Part shown: positions 3,466 to 26,983 of the stretch, in pieces
How positions within the stretch are numbered: position 1 is the stretch's first letter
How the letters are laid out: every line of letters begins with the position of its first letter
Virus record (IMG/VR): IMGVR_UViG_3300015360_000166
Coordinates: 1 to 27,002 of that record
Origin: a virus
Length of the DNA stretch: 27,002 bases
Strand: one strand, 5' to 3'
Notes under the pieces: model-generated
Seen by the model: the letters and a program-made list of their open reading frames with translations, nothing else
Databases searched by the model: none
Told to the model about the DNA's origin: nothing
Position numbers and translations under genes: made by a program

Positions 3466-3798
3466 ATGCCAAATCCTAAAAACATTGAGGGGCAGGGGTT
3501 CCAGACCAACCCCGAACGCATCAACAAGGAAGGCCGCCCACCAGGATCGCGCAACCTATCGACGATCCTGCGCGAGATGCTCGACGAGCACATCGACGTA
3601 GTCATCGACGGCAAAAAGGTAAAGAAGCAATTCAAGGACGCCATCATACGCAAGCTGATAAAGAAAGCCAACGACGGCGACCTGCGCGCGATACAGGAAA
3701 TCTTCGACCGCGTAGAAGGTAAGGCCAAACAGGAAATGAAAATAGACCAAACGCTGGTCGTGGTAGAATTTGGGGACGCTCCAAAAAATAAGGATTAA
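3466..3798 (+). CDS. Terminase small subunit-like protein
   Basis: A 110-residue protein with the layout of small-terminase-like (DUF5681-type) proteins: an N-terminal flexible segment with NKEGRPPGSRNLSTILREML, where GRPxGSxN-x-ST is a typical motif, a central helical DNA-binding region, and a C-terminal helix (AIQEIFDRVEGKAKQE). It would recognise packaging sites and pass DNA to the large subunit. It overlaps the start of the large subunit by 29 bp, which fits translational coupling. No ATPase motif is present, as expected. Confidence 0.75.
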   Translation: MPNPKNIEGQGFQTNPERINKEGRPPGSRNLSTILREMLDEHIDVVIDGKKVKKQFKDAIIRKLIKKANDGDLRAIQEIFDRVEGKAKQEMKIDQTLVVVEFGDAPKNKD

Positions 3799-4978
3799 CC
3801 CCCCCTGGCTTCCGGATTATCAGAAAGAGATAATCTACTCGCCGGCCCGGTTCACGGTCACGGAGGCATCGACGAAAACCGGAAAGACCTTTTCACACCT
3901 CTGGTGGCTCTTTGAGATGGCCTCCCGCGACCCACAGCCAAAGGAGGGGGCAAACTATTGGTGGGTGGCGCCGGTATTTTCACAGGCTAAGATAGCCTTC
4001 ACCCGCCTGAGGATGATGATAATGAAGTACGGCATCTATAAAATCAATGAATCAGACTTATACATTCAGACCCCGAAGGGATCGGTGATATGGTTTAAGT
4101 CCGGCGAAAAGCCTGACAACCTATACGGCGAGGATGTCTATGGGGCGGTATTCGATGAGTTCACCCGCGCCAGGGAGGAGGCCTGGACGGCGCTGCGTAC
4201 GACATTGACAGCAACGAAGGGGCCCTGTAAATTCATTGGGAACGTGCGGGGTAAAAAGAACTGGGGCTATAAGCTGGGCGTGAAGGCCCGCGCCGGCACG
4301 GATGGCTATCAATATTTCAAGGTCACCGCACAGGACGCGGTACGCGAAAGGATATTAGATGCCGAAGAAATTCAGCAGGCCCAGCGTGATCTACCTCCCG
4401 ATGCCTTCCGGCAACTATACCTTGCCGAGGCCCTTGACGACCAGGCCAACCCCTTCGGTATAGACTTCCTGCGAAGGCAGATACAGCCGTTACCGTTATC
4501 TGTTTACCCTACGGTAGCCTTCGGCATAGACCTCGCCAAGTCGGTGGACTGGACGGTAGTTACGGGATTGGATGCAAAGGGCGGCATCACCGTCTTTGAG
4601 CGCTGGCAGTCGGACTGGGCTCAGACGCGGGTGCGGATAATTCAGATGGTGGGACAAAAAAGGGGCTACATTGACTCTACCGGCGTCGGTGACCCTATCG
4701 CCGAAGATATAATCAGGGTATGCCGTGGCATAGAGCGCTATCATTTCACGTCCAAGTCCAAGCAGCAGCTCATGGAGGGGCTGGCCTCCTCGATCCACAA
4801 GGGCGAGGTCAGTGTCCTTGAGGGCGTCATGTTTGAGGAGTTGGAGGGCTTTGAGTTTGAATATTCACGCACAGGCGTTATCTACCGAAGCACCGTACAT
4901 GATGACTGCGTATGTTCGCTGGCTTTGGCAGTGCAAAAGTTAAAAGAAAAAACCCCTACCTTGCGGGTAATACGATGA
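3770..4978 (+). CDS. terL: Terminase large subunit (packaging ATPase/nuclease)
   Basis: A 402-residue motor protein that pumps DNA into the prohead and cuts it. Walker A is STKTGKT at residues 34-40, Walker B is VFDE at 127-130, and a coupling-like LRTTLTAT follows. The RNase H-type nuclease half begins near residue 246 with GIDLAKSVD (D254, D260), then IDSTGVGD (D302, D308) and HDD (D378, D379), so all expected acidic residues are present. The start is a TTG at 3770 overlapping the small subunit. The ATGA overlap at its end couples it to the next small gene. Confidence 0.93.
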   Translation: MGTLQKIRINPPWLPDYQKEIIYSPARFTVTEASTKTGKTFSHLWWLFEMASRDPQPKEGANYWWVAPVFSQAKIAFTRLRMMIMKYGIYKINESDLYIQTPKGSVIWFKSGEKPDNLYGEDVYGAVFDEFTRAREEAWTALRTTLTATKGPCKFIGNVRGKKNWGYKLGVKARAGTDGYQYFKVTAQDAVRERILDAEEIQQAQRDLPPDAFRQLYLAEALDDQANPFGIDFLRRQIQPLPLSVYPTVAFGIDLAKSVDWTVVTGLDAKGGITVFERWQSDWAQTRVRIIQMVGQKRGYIDSTGVGDPIAEDIIRVCRGIERYHFTSKSKQQLMEGLASSIHKGEVSVLEGVMFEELEGFEFEYSRTGVIYRSTVHDDCVCSLALAVQKLKEKTPTLRVIR

Positions 4979-7162: not shown

Positions 7163-9018
7163 GCCTCACCGTCACGCAGCGCCCCGATCAGAGCAACGCC
7201 TGGGTGGCAGGATATAATCCCGTCCTCTACAAGATGCAGCGCAAGGATTATTCTATCACGGCGGTAGCCTCCTCGGGCGGGGCCCTGGCGATAACCGTGT
7301 CCACCAATCTAACAACGCTGGCCACCAATAAAGGCGGCCCCGTTGTCGTGGGATCAGTTCTTTGGGTGACCACCGACAACGGCATTTATAATGCGGCCTA
7401 TACTGTTGTCACCGTCACCTCGGCAGCCTCTTCTATCGTCACCTTCGGGGCCGGCACCTATATATCGGCAGCCACGACGGGGCATATCAATCTCGCCCAG
7501 CGGACGGGCTATCGGGTGGCGACAGAAATATTTGCCGCCAATGGCGTGGCCTCGGCGGCGGTGCTGTTCACGATGCAATTCTCACCCGCTAAGTCCGGGG
7601 CCGTGACGATGGACGTAGCCATTACGAGAAACTACCTGCAGCCGGAACCCTTTGCGTTTCTTTCCACGACGACAAACGCGGGACTCGTTTCAAAGCTCCG
7701 CACCAATACGGTGACGTCCTATCAATTCTATATCAAGTACACCGAAACGTGGATAGGCACTAACGGCGTGGCCTCGGCGGAAACACAAGTCGATGACACC
7801 GCCGCCAGACATTATATTGTGACGGCAGCGCGGCAGATCGGTGAGCTCTATGGGGGGTACCTCAAAGAATATTCCGAACCCAACGCCACGCCCACAAGAA
7901 AGTTTCTCACAAAATTCTCCTCCCCTCCCCTGTGGCCAGGGCGCAAGTTCACGCTCTCCTACATTGATTCCGACGTCTCGGCCACGGTAAGGACGTTAAT
8001 AAAAAAGAAGCGCTACACGGCGGCAGGCACGTTGAACATGGCAACTTATGACCTGCCCGAATATGCGGGGTCTACCGTGAAGAGTGTCTATGAAGTATTC
8101 GAAGACCTTACTACGCCATACCAATTATTGTATGACAAGGAAAACGGGGCCGGCACGGCGTGGTCAAACCTGGGGACGGTCACCCCGTCGGCCGTTACGC
8201 TTGCGGTGGCGGCAAGCTCCAAGATGAAGCTCTATCCCGTCCAGTTAATTCTTGGGTCTACTTATTCTATGACCGTCAGCGCCACGGTGGCGGCCGGCGC
8301 CGCAGCCGACACCGTAAAAGTTCGTCTGACGGCGGTCACCTTAGATGCAACGGTACGCTATACCGTTGACAGCGTCAATCTCTCACAGGCAACGACAACG
8401 GTGCTGACTTTTGCGGCCATCCTGCCGGCCACCTCGGACACCTACTACATCGGGCTGGAGGTCATCCACAACGGGGGCACCACGGCCCGCACCCTCACCG
8501 TTGACTATGCGCGCATAACGATTCCTGTCGTCAATAAGATTGAGTTTCAAATTGTCACCCTCTCCTCCACCATTCCGGCAACGGAGACGGTGGTGAGCGA
8601 AACATTAACGGGAGTAGTTAAGGCGCTTTGTGATTCGCCTATTCAATTATTCTGGAAGAACACCTTAGGCGGGGACGCCAATTATGTATTTGATTTCTCC
8701 CAGGACTATACCACAAAATACACCACCACAAAAAATAAAAGATATGTTTGTTTTGCACAGAGCATTTCCCTTTCAGACTTCGAGGCCATCAACGAAATAA
8801 ATACGCTGGGTGAAATCTATGACCCGGCCATGATTGAGTTAACCACCGCGGTAAATAAAACGCAGGGCCGCAACGGGCAGCAGGTATATAGTGCCGATGC
8901 CTCCGGCAATAAGACGGGGGTGATTGTTATCCCTACGGAAATCAGGACGCGCACGTTCCAAACCCGCCACAACATGGAGGTATTGATTGAACTCCCTGAG
9001 AGCCTCCACCCGCGATGA
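7159..9018 (+). CDS. Large distal tail protein with a CBM-like insert
   Basis: A 619-residue structural protein rich in T, A, V and S with alternating strands throughout. The outer parts (about 1-320 and 455-619) look like a distal-tail scaffold, with a conserved-looking segment PIQLFWKNTLGGDANYVFDF near residue 495. Residues about 325-452 form a self-contained block with WSNLGTVTP, a strand-rich core and DYARI, the layout of a carbohydrate-binding-module or jelly-roll insert. It is joined to its neighbours by ATGA overlaps on both sides and precedes another tail-tip protein. A Dit-like hub with a sugar-binding arm is the best guess; exact function is inferred. Confidence 0.65.
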   Translation: MSLTVTQRPDQSNAWVAGYNPVLYKMQRKDYSITAVASSGGALAITVSTNLTTLATNKGGPVVVGSVLWVTTDNGIYNAAYTVVTVTSAASSIVTFGAGTYISAATTGHINLAQRTGYRVATEIFAANGVASAAVLFTMQFSPAKSGAVTMDVAITRNYLQPEPFAFLSTTTNAGLVSKLRTNTVTSYQFYIKYTETWIGTNGVASAETQVDDTAARHYIVTAARQIGELYGGYLKEYSEPNATPTRKFLTKFSSPPLWPGRKFTLSYIDSDVSATVRTLIKKKRYTAAGTLNMATYDLPEYAGSTVKSVYEVFEDLTTPYQLLYDKENGAGTAWSNLGTVTPSAVTLAVAASSKMKLYPVQLILGSTYSMTVSATVAAGAAADTVKVRLTAVTLDATVRYTVDSVNLSQATTTVLTFAAILPATSDTYYIGLEVIHNGGTTARTLTVDYARITIPVVNKIEFQIVTLSSTIPATETVVSETLTGVVKALCDSPIQLFWKNTLGGDANYVFDFSQDYTTKYTTTKNKRYVCFAQSISLSDFEAINEINTLGEIYDPAMIELTTAVNKTQGRNGQQVYSADASGNKTGVIVIPTEIRTRTFQTRHNMEVLIELPESLHPR

Positions 9019-10922
9019 ACGTATTGCTCATAGCCACATCGGGGGAATACACGGCCGTGGATTTGTTCCCGGGGACGGTGATAGCCTATACCGTCACCAA
9101 GGTCGACATCGGGAACTTAACGGCCAGGGGCGTGAGCTACTCGAATCAAATTTCTGTACCCAGGTCGCGTACTAATGAAATTCTTTTTGCCCTCGCCGCC
9201 GGTGAGCCGGTATCGTCTTCGCTACAATATAATTTATTCGACTGCAAAATGATTTCTAATGGCGTGGAAGTACTCACAGATGGCAGGTGTGTGGTGAAGA
9301 AGGTTGACGCCGGGGAATATTATCTTGAGATTTATGAGTCTATGTTCAACATATTTACTTTTATAAAAGGAAAAGACACTTCGTATCTTAATTATATAGC
9401 CACTACGGGATGGGCTGGGCCCTCTCAGGATACCGCCCGCACGAATACCACGGGCATAATATCGGCGGTCTTAAATTGGGGCCGGGCGGGAGCTATTTTT
9501 CAGACAAACTATTTTCTCCCCTGTTTTTTCTATGGTGAGATGGTTAGAAAGACGCTTGAGCTTACGGGCCTGACATTATCGGGATCGATACTTACAGACA
9601 CCAGATTTACTGATTTGGTAATTCCCTACGGCAAGGAGGATTTCTTTTATCCTGAATCTTTTGTGGAGCCCTATCGGCTTAACGTAGGGAAGAGCGCCAA
9701 CACCTCTGTCGTTCCGTTAGCCATCGGGGCGGTTCACCGGGCGGTAATGAATACGATCGTCACGCAGGGGTCGGCGGCAATGTATAGCACGTCGGCGTAT
9801 GAAGCTACTATTCCCGCGGTTGCCGGGCTGACTGGTACCTTCATGAATATCACCGGGAGTATGCGCTTTGATTTTTCCGCTTTCTGGCCGGCTGGCCCAG
9901 GGGGTGGCGACCTCTTCGCGGTACGGCTTCAGCGTGACCGTGGGGGGGTGGTAACTCCGATCGTAACATTGAACCTTACGGAGGCGGCCTATCCGGCGGG
10001 AGGGGATGCCTCTACTGGAGCCGTTCAGGTTTCCTTTCAGGCCGCGGATAAAATTTATATGGAAGTACTGGGATCAAATAATAATTTATTGGAGGTAACG
10101 TACACCACCGTCACAAACTTTACCCTCACGACAAATACAACCATTGACCGCACCTTTGTTGCATGGAATAAAATCCTTCCTGACATTTCGTTAACGGATT
10201 TGATACGTGATTTCTCTGTACGTTTTGGAATAGTTTTCAAACAAGTGGGGAACGTCCTACACATGAAGACCCTACAGGAAATTATCACCGACACTATCAA
10301 TGCCGTGGACTGGACGAGCAAACGGGTAAACACACATAAAGACGTCACATCCTTCACTTCGGAGTACGCGCAGGTGAACGAATTTTTACATTCCGATTTA
10401 ATTGATGACCCATTAGTAGGCCGTGGCACTATTGATATTATATCTACGGCCCTAGCTCCGATTAAAACGATATTCACTTCCGCGCTGGGGAATTCCATCA
10501 CCGGGCCTGTAGGCGTTTACAACGTGGCTACTATTCCCGTTTATGATGCTACGAGCACGGCGATGGATACTTTCGCCTCCTCTCCGGGCCTGAGGGTGCT
10601 TACATTGAAGGCGCGCACGACGGAGACGGCTATCACCTTCAATGCGATAGCCCGGACAGACTACCGGCTGGCGTATTTCCTGGACACGGAAAAGGCAAAA
10701 GATACTGGATTTAAATATTTCCTATCCCAATTTTATCCTGCCTTAGGCCGGAGCCTCCAGCGTACGAAGATGAAGGATCACTATTACAATCTCTCTGAAC
10801 AGGACGTAGCCGACTACGATCCGCATAAGTTGATTTATGACAACGGCAGTTACTATATCGTAAATAAAATTTTTACCTTCGTGTCGGGAAAGGTTTCAAA
10901 GGTTAATGTTTTCAGGATATGA
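9015..10922 (+). CDS. Large tail-tip/receptor-associated protein
   Basis: A 635-residue beta-rich protein. The N-terminal third resembles a tail-hub or Tal-type fold from Bacteroidota phages: VSVPRSRTNE-like segment near residue 50, FDCKMISNGVEVLTDGRC at about 75-92, and EYYLEIYESMFNIFTFIKG near 98-116. Residues about 255-365 contain a separate jelly-roll-like block (SMRFDFSAFWPAGPGGG, then strands ending TTVTNFTLTTNT). The C-terminal part (DISLTDLIRDFSVRFGIVFK) resembles hub-domain repeats. It probably sits at the tail tip next to the 619-residue protein and takes part in host binding; this is inference from layout and position. Confidence 0.65.
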   Translation: MNVLLIATSGEYTAVDLFPGTVIAYTVTKVDIGNLTARGVSYSNQISVPRSRTNEILFALAAGEPVSSSLQYNLFDCKMISNGVEVLTDGRCVVKKVDAGEYYLEIYESMFNIFTFIKGKDTSYLNYIATTGWAGPSQDTARTNTTGIISAVLNWGRAGAIFQTNYFLPCFFYGEMVRKTLELTGLTLSGSILTDTRFTDLVIPYGKEDFFYPESFVEPYRLNVGKSANTSVVPLAIGAVHRAVMNTIVTQGSAAMYSTSAYEATIPAVAGLTGTFMNITGSMRFDFSAFWPAGPGGGDLFAVRLQRDRGGVVTPIVTLNLTEAAYPAGGDASTGAVQVSFQAADKIYMEVLGSNNNLLEVTYTTVTNFTLTTNTTIDRTFVAWNKILPDISLTDLIRDFSVRFGIVFKQVGNVLHMKTLQEIITDTINAVDWTSKRVNTHKDVTSFTSEYAQVNEFLHSDLIDDPLVGRGTIDIISTALAPIKTIFTSALGNSITGPVGVYNVATIPVYDATSTAMDTFASSPGLRVLTLKARTTETAITFNAIARTDYRLAYFLDTEKAKDTGFKYFLSQFYPALGRSLQRTKMKDHYYNLSEQDVADYDPHKLIYDNGSYYIVNKIFTFVSGKVSKVNVFRI

Positions 10923-14026: not shown

Positions 14027-15154
14027 GTGACGGGAAAAATTTCTATTGTTGGCCCCATCGGGGCGGTAGAAGAAAACGGCAAAATGGCCGGTGTGCTACT
14101 GATTAACGTCATCTCGCAGGTAAAAGCCCTCCCCGCAGGAACTCAAATAATTGAAGTTAACATATCCTCCCCCGGCGGATTGGTGGACGAAGGAGATAAT
14201 ATCTATAATTATCTTGAGTCCCTCAAAAAAGATTTTGTAGTCAACACCGTACAAATAGGACACATTGCGTCGATAGCAACAAAGTTATTTTTGGTCGGAA
14301 CTTCCCGCGTTGCTGACCGTGCCTTTGACTTCATGATTCATAACCCCTGGGTAGACCCGGGGCCGGGAGACTCAAACCATCAGGCTGATATTCTTGAATC
14401 CTTATTGGCTTCGGAGGCCTCATTAAGAAAATTCTATTCTAAAGTATTGAATATCACCGAAGAGGGGCTGACTCCTCTTATGGATCAGGAGACAACGATC
14501 ACCCCCGATCAGTTGGTGAGTTTGGGATTTGCGACATCATTAAAAAATAATCAATTAGTCATGGCAATGAAGACAGAGAAAAAAGAAAAATCCCTGACCG
14601 ACCGGATCAAGGCCCTCGCCGAATCCGTTGGCATAGGAAAAATTAAAGGCATGGACGTGGCCCTCATGGACGGCAGGATGCTGGTCGTGGAGGCCCCCTC
14701 GGAGGATGATATGGTCGGCGCTGCCGCCACCATCGACGGGGCACCGGCCCCCGATGCAGACTATCAATCCGCCCCCGACGCGGCGGGCGTGAGTGACGTT
14801 ATCACCGTCAAGGGTGGTAAGGTTACCGCTGTCGCCGAGGCCCCGATGGCGGTCGAACAAAATGCCAAGATCGAAGCTCTGGAAAAGAACCTGGCCAGCC
14901 TTACCGATGCGGTGAGCGCCCTGGTGGAGGCCGCAAAAGGTGGTACCATCGAAGCCTCCGTAAAGGAGTCAGAGAAGAAATTTGCGGCCCAGATCATGGC
15001 CCTCCGCACTGAAATAGGCACTACGCACGAGCCCAAAAAAGGGGCCGTCGTCTATGCCCAGTCGGTAGCAAAAGAACAGTCCTCCCATCGGTCAATCTCC
15101 CAGGTGATGGCAGAGAAGGCCGAGGCAAGAAAAAAACAACTTAACGGAAATTAA
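14027..15154 (+). CDS. ClpP-type prohead protease fused to scaffold
   Basis: A 375-residue protein from a GTG start. Residues 1-170 are an S14/ClpP-like serine protease: ISSPGG at 47-51 with an oxyanion-type glycine pair, nucleophile Ser82 in GHIAS, His105 in DFMIHNPW, and a candidate Asp153 in PLMDQET. Residues about 180-375 are a charged scaffold region with a short coiled coil (KIEALEKNLASLTDAVSALV) and a basic tail. The protease would cut the scaffold during head maturation. An in-frame ATG at 14561 (or 14567) after an A/T-rich stretch could give a separate scaffold. It lies directly upstream of the major capsid gene. Confidence 0.88.
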   Translation: MTGKISIVGPIGAVEENGKMAGVLLINVISQVKALPAGTQIIEVNISSPGGLVDEGDNIYNYLESLKKDFVVNTVQIGHIASIATKLFLVGTSRVADRAFDFMIHNPWVDPGPGDSNHQADILESLLASEASLRKFYSKVLNITEEGLTPLMDQETTITPDQLVSLGFATSLKNNQLVMAMKTEKKEKSLTDRIKALAESVGIGKIKGMDVALMDGRMLVVEAPSEDDMVGAAATIDGAPAPDADYQSAPDAAGVSDVITVKGGKVTAVAEAPMAVEQNAKIEALEKNLASLTDAVSALVEAAKGGTIEASVKESEKKFAAQIMALRTEIGTTHEPKKGAVVYAQSVAKEQSSHRSISQVMAEKAEARKKQLNGN

Positions 15155-18243: not shown

Positions 18244-18481
18244 AGAAGTTGACGTAGATCAATTGGAGATACCTGAAAAAAGATATATGCCCCGCAATGG
18301 ATCGGTGCTCATGCCCGTGACCGCCGACGGTAAAACGGATTGGGTGGCGGTGCCGTCCTCCCGCTTCGACAAGGCGGCGCAGGATACGCTCCTCAACTTC
18401 TGGGATAAATGCCGTCAGGCCAACCCAACATTCAGCATCGAAGCCAAAATTGCTAAACTCCTCATTGAAGTAGTTGAATGA
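18221..18481 (+). CDS. Hypothetical 86-aa protein before portal
   Basis: ATG at 18221 starts inside the previous gene, and the end overlaps the portal gene by 4 bp. The protein begins with a basic stretch (MARPKKSEEVDVDQLEIPEK), has a short strand region (GSVLMPVTADGKTDWVAVPS) and a C-terminal helix (SIEAKIAKLLIEVVE). I know no family for it. It could be a portal-associated or head-completion protein by context. Confidence 0.55.
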   Translation: MARPKKSEEVDVDQLEIPEKRYMPRNGSVLMPVTADGKTDWVAVPSSRFDKAAQDTLLNFWDKCRQANPTFSIEAKIAKLLIEVVE

Positions 18482-19617
18482 TCTATGGCTACAAATACTC
18501 TCCCCTATTAATTCGCGTACCTACATGGATAGACAGGCGCTTCCAGATTCAGGGTTACGATTCAGATAACCTATACCCCCAACGGGCCAAGCAGGTACTA
18601 AACCGAAGCTATACGCTTAAATCGGCGTGTGCCCGTTACTCGGAGTTCATCAACGGCGAGGGGTTCACCGACCCGATTTTAGCGGGAACAGTCGTCAACC
18701 GCAAGAAGCATACCGCTAACGATATGCTGGATCACATAGGCAACGCCCTCTCCTGGGCGAATGGATTCTATTGCCACGTGGGATATAACCTGGCTTACAA
18801 AATCAATTCCGTTTCAGTAGTTCCCTTTGAATTTAACCGGTTTGGGATGCCCGACGAGGATGGAAATTTTTCAGACATAAAATATTCTACAAACTGGGAG
18901 CAGAATCCTTATAAGAATATTCATGCACAAATGGAAATCTTTGACTACCCTGTTTTCAATCCCGACCCCTATGTAGTCAAAGATCAGATTCTCGCCGCCG
19001 GCGGGATATTAAATTATACGGGTCAGATTTTCTACTGGACTCCCGAAGAGGGCGGATATCCGAAGGCTACCTTTGACGCCGTATTCGATCAGGCGCAGAC
19101 GCAAAGTGAGATAGGGGTATTCGATCTGGCTATGGAACAGAACGGATTCAAGGCCGGCCATGCTTTGATGTATCCGGGGAAGTTCGAAACTAAAAAAGAG
19201 GAGAACGACTTCAAGGAGGGCATAAATTCTTTCACCGGCCAGGGGGCGGGCGGTACGCTCATTATTGAAAACCCCGGCGGCACGTTGAAGGCTCAGGATA
19301 TTATCGCCCCTCTGCAAATGCAGAACACCGACGCCCTTCATGTGAACGTCGACAAGCGCGTGAGGAATGCGATAAGGACAAACTTTGGGATGCCCCCTGA
19401 AATTTTAGGTGAGCTGCCCGAAAGCGGGATGTTCAACCAGCAGCAGATGCAGGACGCGTATATCTATTATAATTCTCTGACCCGTAATGTCCGCAATGTG
19501 GTCGCCAGGCAGATGAAAAAGATTTTCGATAACTGGCAGACACCCCTTCCGGGGGACTATTCTATTATAGCGCAAAAATATTTAATCGAGCAAACGGCGA
19601 TAGGGAACAATGGTTGA
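18478..19617 (+). CDS. Portal protein
   Basis: A 379-residue protein I identify as the dodecameric portal by overall pattern: an N-terminal region with RRFQIQGYDSDNLYPQRAKQ, then LKSACARYSEFINGEGFTD, a beta-rich middle (YNLAYKINSVSVVPFEFNRF), and a long helical C-terminus with DKRVRNAIRTNFGMPPEILG and ESGMFNQQQMQDAYIYYN, the region that forms the wing and stem helices. It is somewhat small for a portal but within the range of Bacteroidota types. It lies behind the capsid genes, about 13.5 kb downstream of the terminase, a non-standard order. It overlaps the connector gene by 8 bp. Confidence 0.8.
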   Translation: MIYGYKYSPLLIRVPTWIDRRFQIQGYDSDNLYPQRAKQVLNRSYTLKSACARYSEFINGEGFTDPILAGTVVNRKKHTANDMLDHIGNALSWANGFYCHVGYNLAYKINSVSVVPFEFNRFGMPDEDGNFSDIKYSTNWEQNPYKNIHAQMEIFDYPVFNPDPYVVKDQILAAGGILNYTGQIFYWTPEEGGYPKATFDAVFDQAQTQSEIGVFDLAMEQNGFKAGHALMYPGKFETKKEENDFKEGINSFTGQGAGGTLIIENPGGTLKAQDIIAPLQMQNTDALHVNVDKRVRNAIRTNFGMPPEILGELPESGMFNQQQMQDAYIYYNSLTRNVRNVVARQMKKIFDNWQTPLPGDYSIIAQKYLIEQTAIGNNG

Positions 19618-24837: not shown

Positions 24838-25197
24838 TTAATCTTTTACAAAATCATAAATTTTTGGAGCCGAACATATTCCTTTAAGCAGCTTAATGCT
24901 TGTCCCTGTTACTATGCAGGTGACGTGAGGATGGTGATTCTCGCATAGGTACTTCAGTAATGGCTCGGCAGCCTTCTTTAATGCTTCCCTTCTTTCTTTT
25001 GCTTGGCTCCTTGGCTCCTCCGCGTCTAAAAGTTGAGACGAAAATCCGTCAACCCAATTATCAAATTCAATCTCCTGCTTTTCTGCTGTCGTTGCCTCTA
25101 ATGGACATGCGTCTGATTCTCTTTGCCAGAAATCCCGTAGCAAATTTCTTGGATTCCTGTCCATTACATAGCGATCATTCATCATCTCGTCTTTCAT
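24838..25197 (-). CDS. Hypothetical 119-aa protein, starts at a repeated 5' leader
   Basis: A 119-residue soluble protein: MKDEMMNDRYVMDRNPRNLL, then charged helices, and a C-terminal part with LLKYLCENHHPHVTCIVTGT and IKLLKGI. From memory, the segment LxKYLxENHHPH is seen in small phage and plasmid proteins of unknown function. The ATG and the 8 bases after it lie inside a 53-bp repeat that is also the leader of the 73-residue gene at 26157-26378, so both genes share one 5' region while their bodies differ. The 24742-24837 interval after it has no gene. Confidence 0.7.
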   Translation of the reverse strand: MKDEMMNDRYVMDRNPRNLLRDFWQRESDACPLEATTAEKQEIEFDNWVDGFSSQLLDAEEPRSQAKERREALKKAAEPLLKYLCENHHPHVTCIVTGTSIKLLKGICSAPKIYDFVKD

Positions 25198-25242
25198 TTT
25201 GTTTGGGGTTTAAATATACGCAATGTGTGTACTTGGTTGTTA
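25190..25242 (-). repeat. 53-bp direct repeat, copy 2 (gene leader)
   Basis: Identical over 53 bp to 26371-26423. On the minus strand it begins at TAAC (25242-25239) and ends with ATGAAAGA, so it holds the whole leader and the start codon of the 119-residue gene. Identity stops exactly at the TAAC boundary. A near-consensus TATATTTA lies 23 bp from that boundary and may be a weak -7 element. Confidence 0.9.
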
Positions 25243-25249
25243 CCAGCAA

Positions 25250-25269
25250 TAAAATTTTTAAAACTTTTT
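25250..25269. repeat. 20-bp inverted repeat flanking the methyltransferase, left copy
   Basis: TAAAATTTTTAAAACTTTTT at 25250-25269 is the reverse complement of 26003-26022 with one mismatch. The pair brackets the methyltransferase gene on both sides. A/T-rich and partly self-complementary, so chance is possible, but position and length suggest a boundary. Confidence 0.5.
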
Positions 25270-25290
25270 TTCCTTCCCACATCAATTTTT

Positions 25291-25986
25291 TCAAAATTGT
25301 AAAAGGATTTGTTCATTGTCGTAATTCGTTTTATGGTTTGACCAAATGGCTTCTGTGGTTTTAAACATTGTCCCTTGCATTTCTTTCATCGGTTTAAATG
25401 GTAGCCAATCTGCTTTTGTGTTCTCGCAAACTATTACTTGTCCGTTTCTACTTTTACACCAATCCGAAAGGGCTGCAAAGTTTATATTCTTATTGCTCAT
25501 TTTGTATTCGTGTCCACCAAATTGATAAGGTGGGTCAATAAACCAAGTTGCATCTTCATTTTGCAAATCATCATAGCTTTCAAGTCTTATTTCCCAATGC
25601 TTTATTTTATGCAAGTTTTCTACAATAAAATTAAACTTTTCATCCATCCTTTTTACTGCGAAACAACTTGCAGTCCTTCTCATTCCAGTAGTGCCATCTT
25701 GCACCATAAATCCCATAAACTTTCTTTCAATATCTGACAATTCAAAATCATCAATAGTTTGCCCAGTATCTAATCTTGGCAGTTTTAAAATATCATTTTC
25801 ACTTGCATTTTTTAAGTAATTCCATACTTCAATTATCACAGGATATTTGTCAACCAATAAAACATCATTCTGCCAATACTTCAAACTATACCTTGCACTG
25901 CCTGCAAACGGTTCTATAATCCGTTTATGCTTCGGTGGTGGATAGTAATCTACAATCTTTGACTTGCTACCGTAATAACTAAACAT
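25291..25986 (-). CDS. D12-type adenine-N6 DNA methyltransferase
   Basis: I start at the ATG at 25986, so that the protein begins MFSYYGSKSKIVDYYPPP, as usual for D12/Dam-type enzymes that start FSYYGSK. The SAM-binding motif I is EPFAGSA at residues 25-31; the catalytic motif IV is DPPY at 151-154, with FID just before. It methylates adenine at a short target that I cannot predict. The DNA is much A/T-richer than the late genes. It lies between 20-bp inverted repeats and two attC-like boundaries, and downstream of its stop is the repeated leader. Likely a gene cassette and phage anti-restriction enzyme. Confidence 0.9.
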   Translation of the reverse strand: MFSYYGSKSKIVDYYPPPKHKRIIEPFAGSARYSLKYWQNDVLLVDKYPVIIEVWNYLKNASENDILKLPRLDTGQTIDDFELSDIERKFMGFMVQDGTTGMRRTASCFAVKRMDEKFNFIVENLHKIKHWEIRLESYDDLQNEDATWFIDPPYQFGGHEYKMSNKNINFAALSDWCKSRNGQVIVCENTKADWLPFKPMKEMQGTMFKTTEAIWSNHKTNYDNEQILLQF

Positions 25987-26002
25987 AAAAAAGCCCTCCC
26001 AC

Positions 26003-26022
26003 AAAAAGTTTTAAAATTTTTA
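26003..26022. repeat. 20-bp inverted repeat flanking the methyltransferase, right copy
   Basis: AAAAAGTTTTAAAATTTTTA at 26003-26022 is the inverse partner of 25250-25269 (19/20). It lies 16 bp upstream of the methyltransferase ATG on the minus strand and just inside the attC-like site A. Confidence 0.5.
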
Positions 26023-26030
26023 CAGACACA

Positions 26031-26159
26031 TAACAAGGGCTAAAAGAAATAGGGGGCTTACCTGCTTCTAACAAACCTTTGTGCTGTATCGAACTTTCGT
26101 TTTTCATATCTAAATTTGTGCTGTTAAATCCCCCTACTTCTCTTAGCCCCGATACGTTA
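26031..26159 (-). repeat. attC-like palindromic site A, 129 bp
   Basis: Outer ends are TAAC (26031-26034) and GTTA (26156-26159). Arms of 20 nt at 26037-26056 (GGGCTAAAAGAAATAGGGGG) and 26130-26149 pair with two mismatches; the 73-nt central region contains the direct repeat TTTGTGCTGT (26078-26087 and 26115-26124). The spacers between ends and arms are unequal (2 and 6 nt). The stop codon TAA of the 73-residue gene is part of the TAAC at its minus-strand start, as in integron cassettes where the attC follows the gene. Core GTTAGCGG differs from the canonical GTTRRRY. Confidence 0.7.
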
Positions 26160-26378
26160 GCGGTCATTGCGAACTAACTTTACAGCCCTATCAATCAACT
26201 TCATTATTTCGGTTATTGACTTTTTAGGTGAGCCATCTTCATCTAAATCAGTTATGTAGGTTTCGATTAGATCCTTGATTACTTGCTTATGTTCTTGCAA
26301 CGAACCGCTAACATCACCTACCAAAAAGGCGGGGCTTTGTGTTTCATCAGAAACATTTGTTTTTAAATTATCTTTCAT
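26157..26378 (-). CDS. Small 73-aa protein, start in repeated leader, stop in site A
   Basis: A 73-residue protein whose ATG is in the 53-bp repeat and whose stop TAA coincides with the TAAC end of site A. The first 26 residues read MKDNLKTNVSDETQSPAFLV, then GDVSGS; the codons GTT AGC GGT (V23-S24-G25) are a copy of the boundary motif. The rest (LQEHKQVIKDLIETYITDLD, then AVKLVRNDR) is helical and charged. So the protein body appears joined to a leader peptide at the boundary motif. No function is recognised; it could be a small antitoxin- or regulator-type protein. Confidence 0.6.
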   Translation of the reverse strand: MKDNLKTNVSDETQSPAFLVGDVSGSLQEHKQVIKDLIETYITDLDEDGSPKKSITEIMKLIDRAVKLVRNDR

Positions 26379-26423
26379 TTTGTTTGGGGTTTAAATATAC
26401 GCAATGTGTGTACTTGGTTGTTA
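26371..26423 (-). repeat. 53-bp direct repeat, copy 1 (gene leader)
   Basis: Identical to 25190-25242. On the minus strand it begins at TAAC (26423-26420), preceded by CCGC, and ends in ATGAAAGA, the start of the 73-residue gene. The upstream neighbour ends with TAG at 26433-26435. The two copies are 1,181 bp apart. Confidence 0.9.
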
Positions 26424-26432
26424 GCGGTAATG

Positions 26433-26819
26433 CTAATACAAGTCCTCTGAGAATAATCTGTTACCTCGAATTTCTTTAATATCCATTACCTGATTTTCTC
26501 TTAATGCAATAATTAGTGCTTCCTCTCTGCTCACAAACCTATTTTTGGAAGTCAAAAAACCTTGTTCATTTTCCCCACTTTCCGCATCTCTTAATCCAGT
26601 AACGGCACATTTGGTATAAATGCAATGTCCGTGCCTATGTCCGCTAAATACTAATCCTGTTGGGCAGTTTTTTGGGTTTGTACTTTCAAATGGTATTTCC
26701 TTTTTAATTGGAATTTCTTTATACCAAACGGCAGCACATATTATTCGCTCCGAACCCGTACTACCGCTAACAGCAGATAGGCAAAAAAGCCGTTTCAGTT
26801 TCATAAGAATATTTTTCAT
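26433..26819 (-). CDS. Phage/plasmid-type 128-aa protein fused to a site-derived leader
   Basis: The body from about residue 25 (RIICAAVWYKEIPIKKEIPF, then LVFSGHRHGHCIYTKCAVTG and QGFLTSKNRFVSREEA) belongs, from memory, to a family common in phages and mobile elements that starts at or just before RIICAA and ends in GLFSEDLY or NRLFSEDLY. Here it ends NRLFSEDLY, so the C-terminus is intact. Residues 1-20 (MKNILMKLKRLFCLSAVSGS) come from the attC-like site B and have no counterpart in that family. There is no in-frame ATG nearer the body. Codons 17-19 are GTT AGC GGT, the site boundary. Cys and His residues suggest a metal or redox role, unproven. Confidence 0.75.
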   Translation of the reverse strand: MKNILMKLKRLFCLSAVSGSTGSERIICAAVWYKEIPIKKEIPFESTNPKNCPTGLVFSGHRHGHCIYTKCAVTGLRDAESGENEQGFLTSKNRFVSREEALIIALRENQVMDIKEIRGNRLFSEDLY

Positions 26820-26886
26820 AAGTATTAAATTTATCGTTTCAAATTATGTTTTCGTTTCGGCTTCTTCGCCTATCTGCAAAACGTTA
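26768..26886 (-). repeat. attC-like palindromic site B, 119 bp
   Basis: Ends are TAAC (26768-26771) and GTTA (26883-26886). Arms of 20 nt at 26773-26792 (GCAGATAGGCAAAAAAGCCG) and 26858-26877 pair with two mismatches. As in site A, the two spacers between ends and arms differ by 4 nt (1 and 5). The 65-nt centre holds the two possible ATG starts of the 128-residue gene (26819 and 26804). The site shares its right end, GTTAAC, with site E. Confidence 0.7.
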
Positions 26887-26983
26887 ACGGTAATAAACCT
26901 TCTCAATAAAGCCCTGCTGCTGAGGCTCCACACACTCCACGCTCACGGGCTTTACCCAGCGCAACGGTTTACATACCGTTAAC
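26883..26983. repeat. Palindromic element E, 101 bp, without a gene
   Basis: Outer arms 26883-26899 and 26966-26983 pair through GTTAACGGTA/TACCGTTAAC (10 bp) and TAAACC/GGTTTA (6 bp). Inner arms TAAAGCCC (26907-26914) and GGGCTTTA (26947-26954) pair perfectly. The two-step stem is like the R and L boxes of an attC site. The boundary motif GTTAACGGTA points inward at both ends. There is no reading frame inside of useful size. Confidence 0.6.

Follow-up and report, generated by a model that had tools for sequence, protein, structure and literature searches.

The end of a tailed-phage contig carries what the evidence supports as a short run of exchangeable gene cassettes, with putative hairpin recombination sites as their boundaries. 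The contig is a 27,002-base IMG/VR virus record, analysed at its full length and called the window below. Its last part is very probably the attI-proximal portion of an integron-like cassette array in a tailed phage, with recombination, the strand that folds and translation from the site deduced from sequence comparisons. The original prediction of a cassette array with non-canonical integron-like sites in phage DNA is supported by the linkage of such sites to a recombinase, by the covariation of their arms and by changes of gene content at their boundaries. In the mechanism proposed, each cassette would consist of a gene and a palindromic attC-like site of ~126 nt. A tyrosine recombinase related to XerA and IntI but without the IntI additional domain, encoded by the host or by the phage, would act at the GTTA core, joining the folded single-stranded site to attI or to another such site, and cassettes would thereby be gained, lost and shuffled. 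In host arrays the genes point away from attI, the arrangement of ordinary integrons, and those in phage arrays are flipped toward attI, a large minority of them apparently starting in the loop of the site, where the hairpin would also form the 5' end of the gene.

A family of sites, cassette boundaries defined by private tags, changes of context at these boundaries, linkage to an integrase and to attI, flipped gene orientation in phages and reading frames that stay open through the site were all observed. On balance, these arrays seem to represent a new integron lineage that would be widespread in Bacteroidota and captured by phages, with an integrase devoid of the additional domain, a core carrying a private tag, and a phage attC hairpin that would double as a translation leader.

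The array and its phage context

The contig bears terminase, portal, head protease and tail genes, and its GC content changes from ~0.50 to 0.33-0.39 at the array, from ~25.2 kb onward (Table 1). No integrase was found within the window fragment. Relatives of the phage were sought with its 186-aa CHAP-like protein and none was found; blastn of the window array against annotated phages gave no match, nor did a search of viral contigs for the leader repeat AACCAAGTACACACATTGCG. The host of this phage is most likely a Bacteroidota bacterium.

On the + strand the order is attI copy 1, methyltransferase segment, site A, 73-aa cassette, hybrid site, phrog_839 cassette, site B and mini-cassette E. 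Only three to four cassettes are visible. All array genes lie on the minus strand, with stop codons within or just ahead of the ACCGYTAAC ends.

Table 1. Positions of the array elements and of tailed-phage genes in the window
Feature	Position	Strand	Remarks
Terminase	3770-4978		tailed-phage gene on the array-bearing contig
Head maturation protease	14027-15154		tailed-phage gene on the array-bearing contig
Portal	18478-19617		tailed-phage gene on the array-bearing contig
Putative attI-like site, copy 1	25190-25238	+	95% repeat of copy 2; cassette junction GTTA 25239-25242
Segment with D12-class adenine DNA methyltransferase	25239-26030	-	ORF 25291-26004; PF02086 E 7.5e-8, phrog_56 E 3.7e-12
Site A, attC-like hairpin	26031-26159	-	TAACG...TTGTTA on the minus strand; fold z -5.7 as minus-strand RNA, -2.4 as + strand DNA
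73-aa ORF cassette	26156-26312	-	most of ORF 26157-26378
Hybrid site C	26309-26423	-	attC half fused to attI copy 2 (26371-26419); R'' 26309-26312, GTTA 26420-26423
Putative attI-like site, copy 2	26371-26419	+	junction GTTA 26420-26423; from leader-repeat copy and alignment
phrog_839 cassette	26420-26771	-	ORF 26433-26819, 128 aa; phrog_839 E 2.4e-20 from residue 23
Site B, attC-like hairpin	26768-26886	-	fold z -8.5 as minus-strand RNA, -2.8 as + strand DNA
Mini-cassette E	26883-26983	-	34-aa ORF ending YYR*; the contig end cuts off the following site

Sites A and B had been described as hairpins with TAAC/GTTA ends and long arms, and their positions, ends and arms all hold, with unrelated arm sequences in the two. 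The same inventory missed the hybrid site C, in which, on the + strand, an attC half comes first and attI copy 2 second. The attC half is homologous in alignment to sites of two other contigs (L049 and L156) and carries the leader MKDNLKTNVSDETQSPAFLVGDV, and the other half aligns with attI copy 1. The leader repeat reported earlier does recur, in two 61-nt copies (25190-25250 and 26371-26431) that are 95% identical, but it is now read as a probable duplicated attI-like site. Copy 1 resembles the host attI junctions found by tag pairing, such as that of L166 (TATATACGCAATAGTGCGTGTATTCACTC followed by GTTA).

The methyltransferase segment carries different end tags (CCAGCA and TGTGTC) and is therefore not a clean single cassette; its ORF is flanked, despite the non-matching tags, by a 20-bp near-perfect inverted repeat (25250-25269 and 26003-26022). 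In the 73-aa cassette, whose end tags GCGGTC and GCGGTT match at 5/6 positions, the ORF has its ATG at 26378 within hybrid site C and its TAA stop within the core. The phrog_839 ORF likewise has its start codon within site B, which encodes MKNILMKLKRLFCLSAV as the N-terminus of the next ORF, and its stop just ahead of the core; here both tags read GCGGTA (6/6). Element E, proposed as a further site with a two-step stem, is best read as a whole mini-cassette, since the tag ACGGTA at both of its ends (6/6) makes that stem the end-to-end complementarity of the cassette. The tags of the window are near-identical (GCGGTN) and a mismatched pairing of A to B likewise scores 5/6, so the tag test rests on the site family and not on the window alone. 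A search of Rfam with sites A and B returned plant microRNA matches, all sub-threshold, that were read as hairpin mimicry.

A family of hairpin sites of uniform length

Sites A and B belong to a family of ~126-nt sites with TAACG...TGTTA ends and covarying arms. A strict pattern built from these sites matched viral and genome contigs, at least 120 of each, the genome contigs being nearly all from Bacteroidota among the matches listed; the few matches beyond Bacteroidota, such as L169 and L187, may be due to chance. A relaxed scan of 2.26 Mb of sequence, which also required GTTA, detected 588 sites with a median length of 126, against 9 on the reversed-sequence control. When 46 diverse sites were aligned, TAACG and TGTTA proved invariant and the arms variable, with compensatory changes at 18 of 24 pairs. 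Covariation amounted to 0.644, compared with 0.148 for shuffled and 0.10-0.12 for slid alignments, and 95% of cells were paired against 68% after shuffling, part of this covariation being built in because the relaxed scan selected on arm pairing. In sites selected by pattern only, outer-arm complementarity was 6.7/8 as opposed to 4.1 with shuffled partners, and the effect was smaller in the inner arm (5.1 vs 4.4 of 7). Many sites with variable arms had been anticipated, and the number of sites and the variable, covarying arms of those aligned answer to that expectation.

The architecture is uniform, with spacers of 5 and 1 nt and a length of ~126 nt, and there is one such palindromic, structure-conserved and sequence-variable site per cassette. 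G-T wobbles are conserved at columns 5/136 and 25/121 and at tag position 7; on the other strand these would be C-A mismatches. Of 553 cores, 40 on one side and 45 on the other (7-8%) fit the classical GTTRRRY consensus. The motif GTTARCGGTANT, counted with up to two mismatches, does recur in the window as originally reported (20 occurrences against 10.0 +/- 3.3 expected, 6 of them within the final 850 bases), but the core is GTTA plus a cassette-specific hexamer and not the GTTARCGG first proposed.

Cassette boundaries and exchange

When an integron cassette is circular, its two ends pair with each other. Across 322 pairs, the start of a cassette after GTTA matched the reverse complement of its own end before TAAC at 5.8 of 8 positions, compared with 2.7/8 for the two sides of a single site and 2.5/8 for random pairs. 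Identity was 0.92-0.97 at the first five positions, 0.71 at the sixth and near zero at the seventh, where one end has G and the other A, a G-T wobble on the TAACG strand; it was 0.72-0.91 at four positions past the seventh and fell to background beyond about position 11. Cassette lengths range from 158 to 1292 nt (5-95%), with a median of 394.

Relatives of the phrog_839 gene were found in viral contigs, and its GTTA/TAAC boundaries are identical in four contigs (the window and L004-L006) with different surroundings. The three other copies are 91-97% identical, starting with GCTGTTAGCGGTAGTAC and ending with ACCGCTAAC as in the window, and their neighbours and hairpins differ. A relative of site B is joined to a different gene in L027/L028. 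Units running from TAAC to TAAC, consisting of hairpin and gene, are common to L092/L141 (99%), L053/L093 and L004/L005, and these rule out a cassette made of a gene and its downstream hairpin in the phage gene direction. Other genes (in L056/L107 and L175/L247, and phrog_839 itself) occur in different contigs without a common hairpin, so the unit is not always site plus gene and exchange can involve the hairpin as well. Cassettes thus switch neighbours at the core and keep their ends, on the few pairs that are informative. Gene swaps between relatives, which the original prediction named as a check, fall exactly at the TAAC/GTTA boundaries. The gene content of relatives is not fixed, and the hairpins are not sequence-conserved terminators, the two outcomes that would have spoken against cassettes.

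Linked recombinase and attI

A linked tyrosine recombinase had also been named as a check, and one was found near sites in hosts and on six viral contigs. Among 296 Bacteroidota genomes, 21 had sites and 94 had the integrase (E at most 1e-70); the integrase was present in 17/21 genomes with sites and in 77/275 without (p 2e-6). The best TIGR02249-like match in 20 site-bearing genomes ranged from 1e-20 to 1e-38, none of them above the curated cut-off, and in 11 of these 20 the best or second-best match, or a degenerate copy, lay at most ~6 kb from a site. The linked integrases align with IntI4 (2a3v) on either side of the additional domain, where chain residues 185-242 are replaced by 16 aa, and their box-to-box gap is 53-59 aa compared with 100 aa in IntI1; the IntI additional domain is thus absent from the linked recombinase. 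This domain is described as necessary for activity in work by Messier and Roy (2001), as cited in PMC2426708. In the integrase tree IntI1 is not separated from the linked integrases, support being too weak for placing IntI1. The best-scoring named family for both host and phage integrases is NCBIfam NF040815 (recomb_XerA_Arch), whose product name, 'site-specific tyrosine recombinase/integron integrase', implies nothing on attI, attC or cassettes. The integrases near sites fall into at least two subfamilies (L185/L186 and L224/L163/L244), and some have long N-terminal extensions, with open frames of up to ~600 aa.

A search with the private tag of the first site recovered GTTA plus its hexamer (0-1 mismatch) between the integrase and the first site at nearly all loci tested. 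In hosts this junction often lies ~100 nt past the integrase stop, after an AT-rich, TATATA-like stretch, so that an attI-like site stands beside the integrase gene and is abutted by the first cassette. The six viral contigs bear their own, shorter relative of the integrase adjoining the array; L047 unites terminase, portal, integrase and 3 sites on one contig, and in L080 a run of 15 sites is followed by the integrase. In a cultured isolate, Chryseobacterium sp. SNU WT5, a complete plasmid (L306, NZ_CP041688.1) encodes an integrase of this type at 8001-9044 (WP_143853951) and has a 126-nt site at 10405-10530; RefSeq gives this integrase the product name quoted above and leaves the adjoining array without annotation.

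Flipped orientation and genes that appear to start inside the site

Relative to the TAACG strand, viral cassettes are 175 sense and 8 antisense (175/206), whereas host cassettes are 11 sense and 90 antisense (90/103). As attI is on the same side in both, host genes point away from it and phage genes point toward it. It follows that a phage site forms the 5' end of the cassette to which it belongs, as the shared TAAC-to-TAAC units support, and a platform promoter Pc at attI could not drive the genes of phage arrays. Sites had been described as placed after genes, which is the order of host arrays; the phage orientation of attC and gene is the opposite. DNA methyltransferases with a DLAIVDPPYG motif are frequent cargo of phage cassettes (L033, L043, L051, L086, L094, L099 and L144).

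An ATG within the site that reads at least 100 nt past the core was found in 150 of 320 viral but only 10 of 219 host sites (5%). A stricter count took only the longest ORF per cassette, of at least 50 aa, and placed the start in the site for 90 of 305 phage cassettes. Depending on the count used, 30-47% of phage sites thus contain an ATG whose frame continues through the hairpin into the gene. Leaders such as MNDNLTTNASNEAESPAFLVGAV recur ahead of different proteins. Substitutions in the leaders are distributed over the codon positions as 37/28/35%, and with so little bias the leader peptide may be of minor importance compared with the start codon. A model in which every recombination event would produce a novel chimeric N-terminus was dropped: with shared units running from TAAC to TAAC, and with attI at the 3' end of phage arrays, the start codon would normally travel with its gene. 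Phage-type leaders with an ATG in the site also occur at rare host-contig sites (L156, L174 and L267), and these genome contigs may represent prophages, or else phage sequences that were binned with host DNA.

Alternative explanations

Hairpins at gene ends could be dispersed repeats or terminators, with ordinary mosaic phage evolution, through homologous or illegitimate recombination, accounting for the gene differences. The hairpins are indeed strong and at gene ends, those within one lineage are so alike that they could favour homologous exchange (matches of 150 nt extend over the hairpin only), and the hybrid site C and doubled attI of the window look like such an event. Private end-to-end tags and a tag match across attI would however be unexpected, the breakpoints fall at the core, and an integrase is linked; this explanation is disfavoured as scarcely probable. 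A classical IntI with the additional domain might have built the array in trans, leaving the linked recombinase a bystander. IntI1 recombined the predicted attC of a Polaribacter phage (PMC9892861), which indicates that IntI can act on some phage-borne sites, and the tree does not set IntI1 apart from the linked integrases. Against this stand the lack of any TIGR02249 match over the cut-off in the 20 site-bearing genomes, the repeated position of the recombinase without additional domain beside attI and the first cassette, the rarity of GTTRRRY cores and the near absence of reported classical integrons from Bacteroidota (PMC9024848), which together make an IntI acting in trans very unlikely.

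A third possibility is that phage ORFs with an apparent start in the site in truth begin past the core, the open frame through the hairpin being incidental. In 53% of phage sites there is no read-through ORF, 38 open read-through frames have an ATG at most 60 nt past the core, and the leader substitutions show little codon bias. On the other side, 97 of the 150 read-through ORFs lack an ATG in the first 20 codons past the core, and 39 lack one altogether. Homologues of phrog_839 outside arrays start with MNEKIICAA (L007), where the array copy reads AVSGSTGSERIICAA and offers no start. Upstream of the site ATG, A predominates at -3, -6 and -11 to -13 and G is almost absent, the same initiation context as in Flavobacterium johnsoniae, a member of Bacteroidota (PMC6847099). 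The read-through frames are skewed 103:41:6, and host sites of the same family have such frames in 5% of cases. A start past the core is accordingly considered unlikely, though less so than the other two explanations, and initiation within the phage site is preferred.

Relation to known integrons

The system works like an integron and departs from the IntI integrons in the additional domain and in the GTTRRRY core. It shares with integrons a recombinase gene beside an attI-like junction, an array of small cassettes with one palindromic, structure-conserved site each, complementary cassette ends and stop codons that merge with the core. Unlike IntI integrons, its integrase has no additional domain and 53-59 instead of 100 aa between the boxes, its core is GTTA plus a private hexamer, its sites have a uniform length of ~126 nt with spacers of 5 and 1 nt, and its phage genes are flipped, with many that appear to start within the site. 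Standard integron finders rely on the IntI additional domain and on classical attC models. According to the IntegronFinder 2.0 work, Bacteroidetes had earlier yielded only integrase-only (In0) elements, and one complete integron, in Salinibacter, is reported (PMC9024848). In the atypical integrons of Treponema the integrase runs in the same direction as the cassettes (PMC3607928), and the host arrays described here have the same gene direction. If active, the arrays would amount to a large gene-capture platform that has been missed in Bacteroidota and their phages, and cassette recombination would need no additional domain, which would open the origin of IntI to testing. In the flipped phage cassettes, a single stretch of DNA would be under two constraints at once, to fold for recombination and to encode the start of a protein.

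For a recombination site whose DNA provides a cassette gene with translation signals, there is a precedent in ORF-11 and ORF-18 of attI1 and in fused cassettes. ORF-11 is a short separate peptide in attI1 that acts by translational coupling (PMC8876359; PMC4670013), whereas here the site of the cassette itself would hold the start codon, with a frame unbroken through the core into the protein. Integrons and CALINs borne by phages have been reported (Qi et al., 2023; PMC9892861), with attC-bounded cassettes that often encode DNA methyltransferases and with the Bacteroidota phage P12002L among them. The present arrays likewise have attC-bounded cassettes and DNA methyltransferase cargo. That set was found by classical attC models and, in virulent phages, had no integrase, while several viral contigs here bear an integrase lacking the additional domain that adjoins the array; the 126-nt site family and flipped genes starting in the site are not described there (PMC9892861). 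In the open-access journal literature searched, no description was found of the site family, of integron integrases without the additional domain accompanied by cassettes, or of start codons internal to attC.

Two cultured Polaribacter phages carry smaller hairpins of related form. In P12002L a 58-nt TAACG...TTGTTA hairpin (L308, 38879-38936) lies just upstream of the methyltransferase gene gp54; this is the phage whose predicted attC was recombined by IntI1 (PMC9892861), and the hairpin is a candidate for the same site. Leef_1 has a small hairpin with TAACG/TGTTA ends (L304, 4249-4303) and a distantly related integrase of 32% identity.
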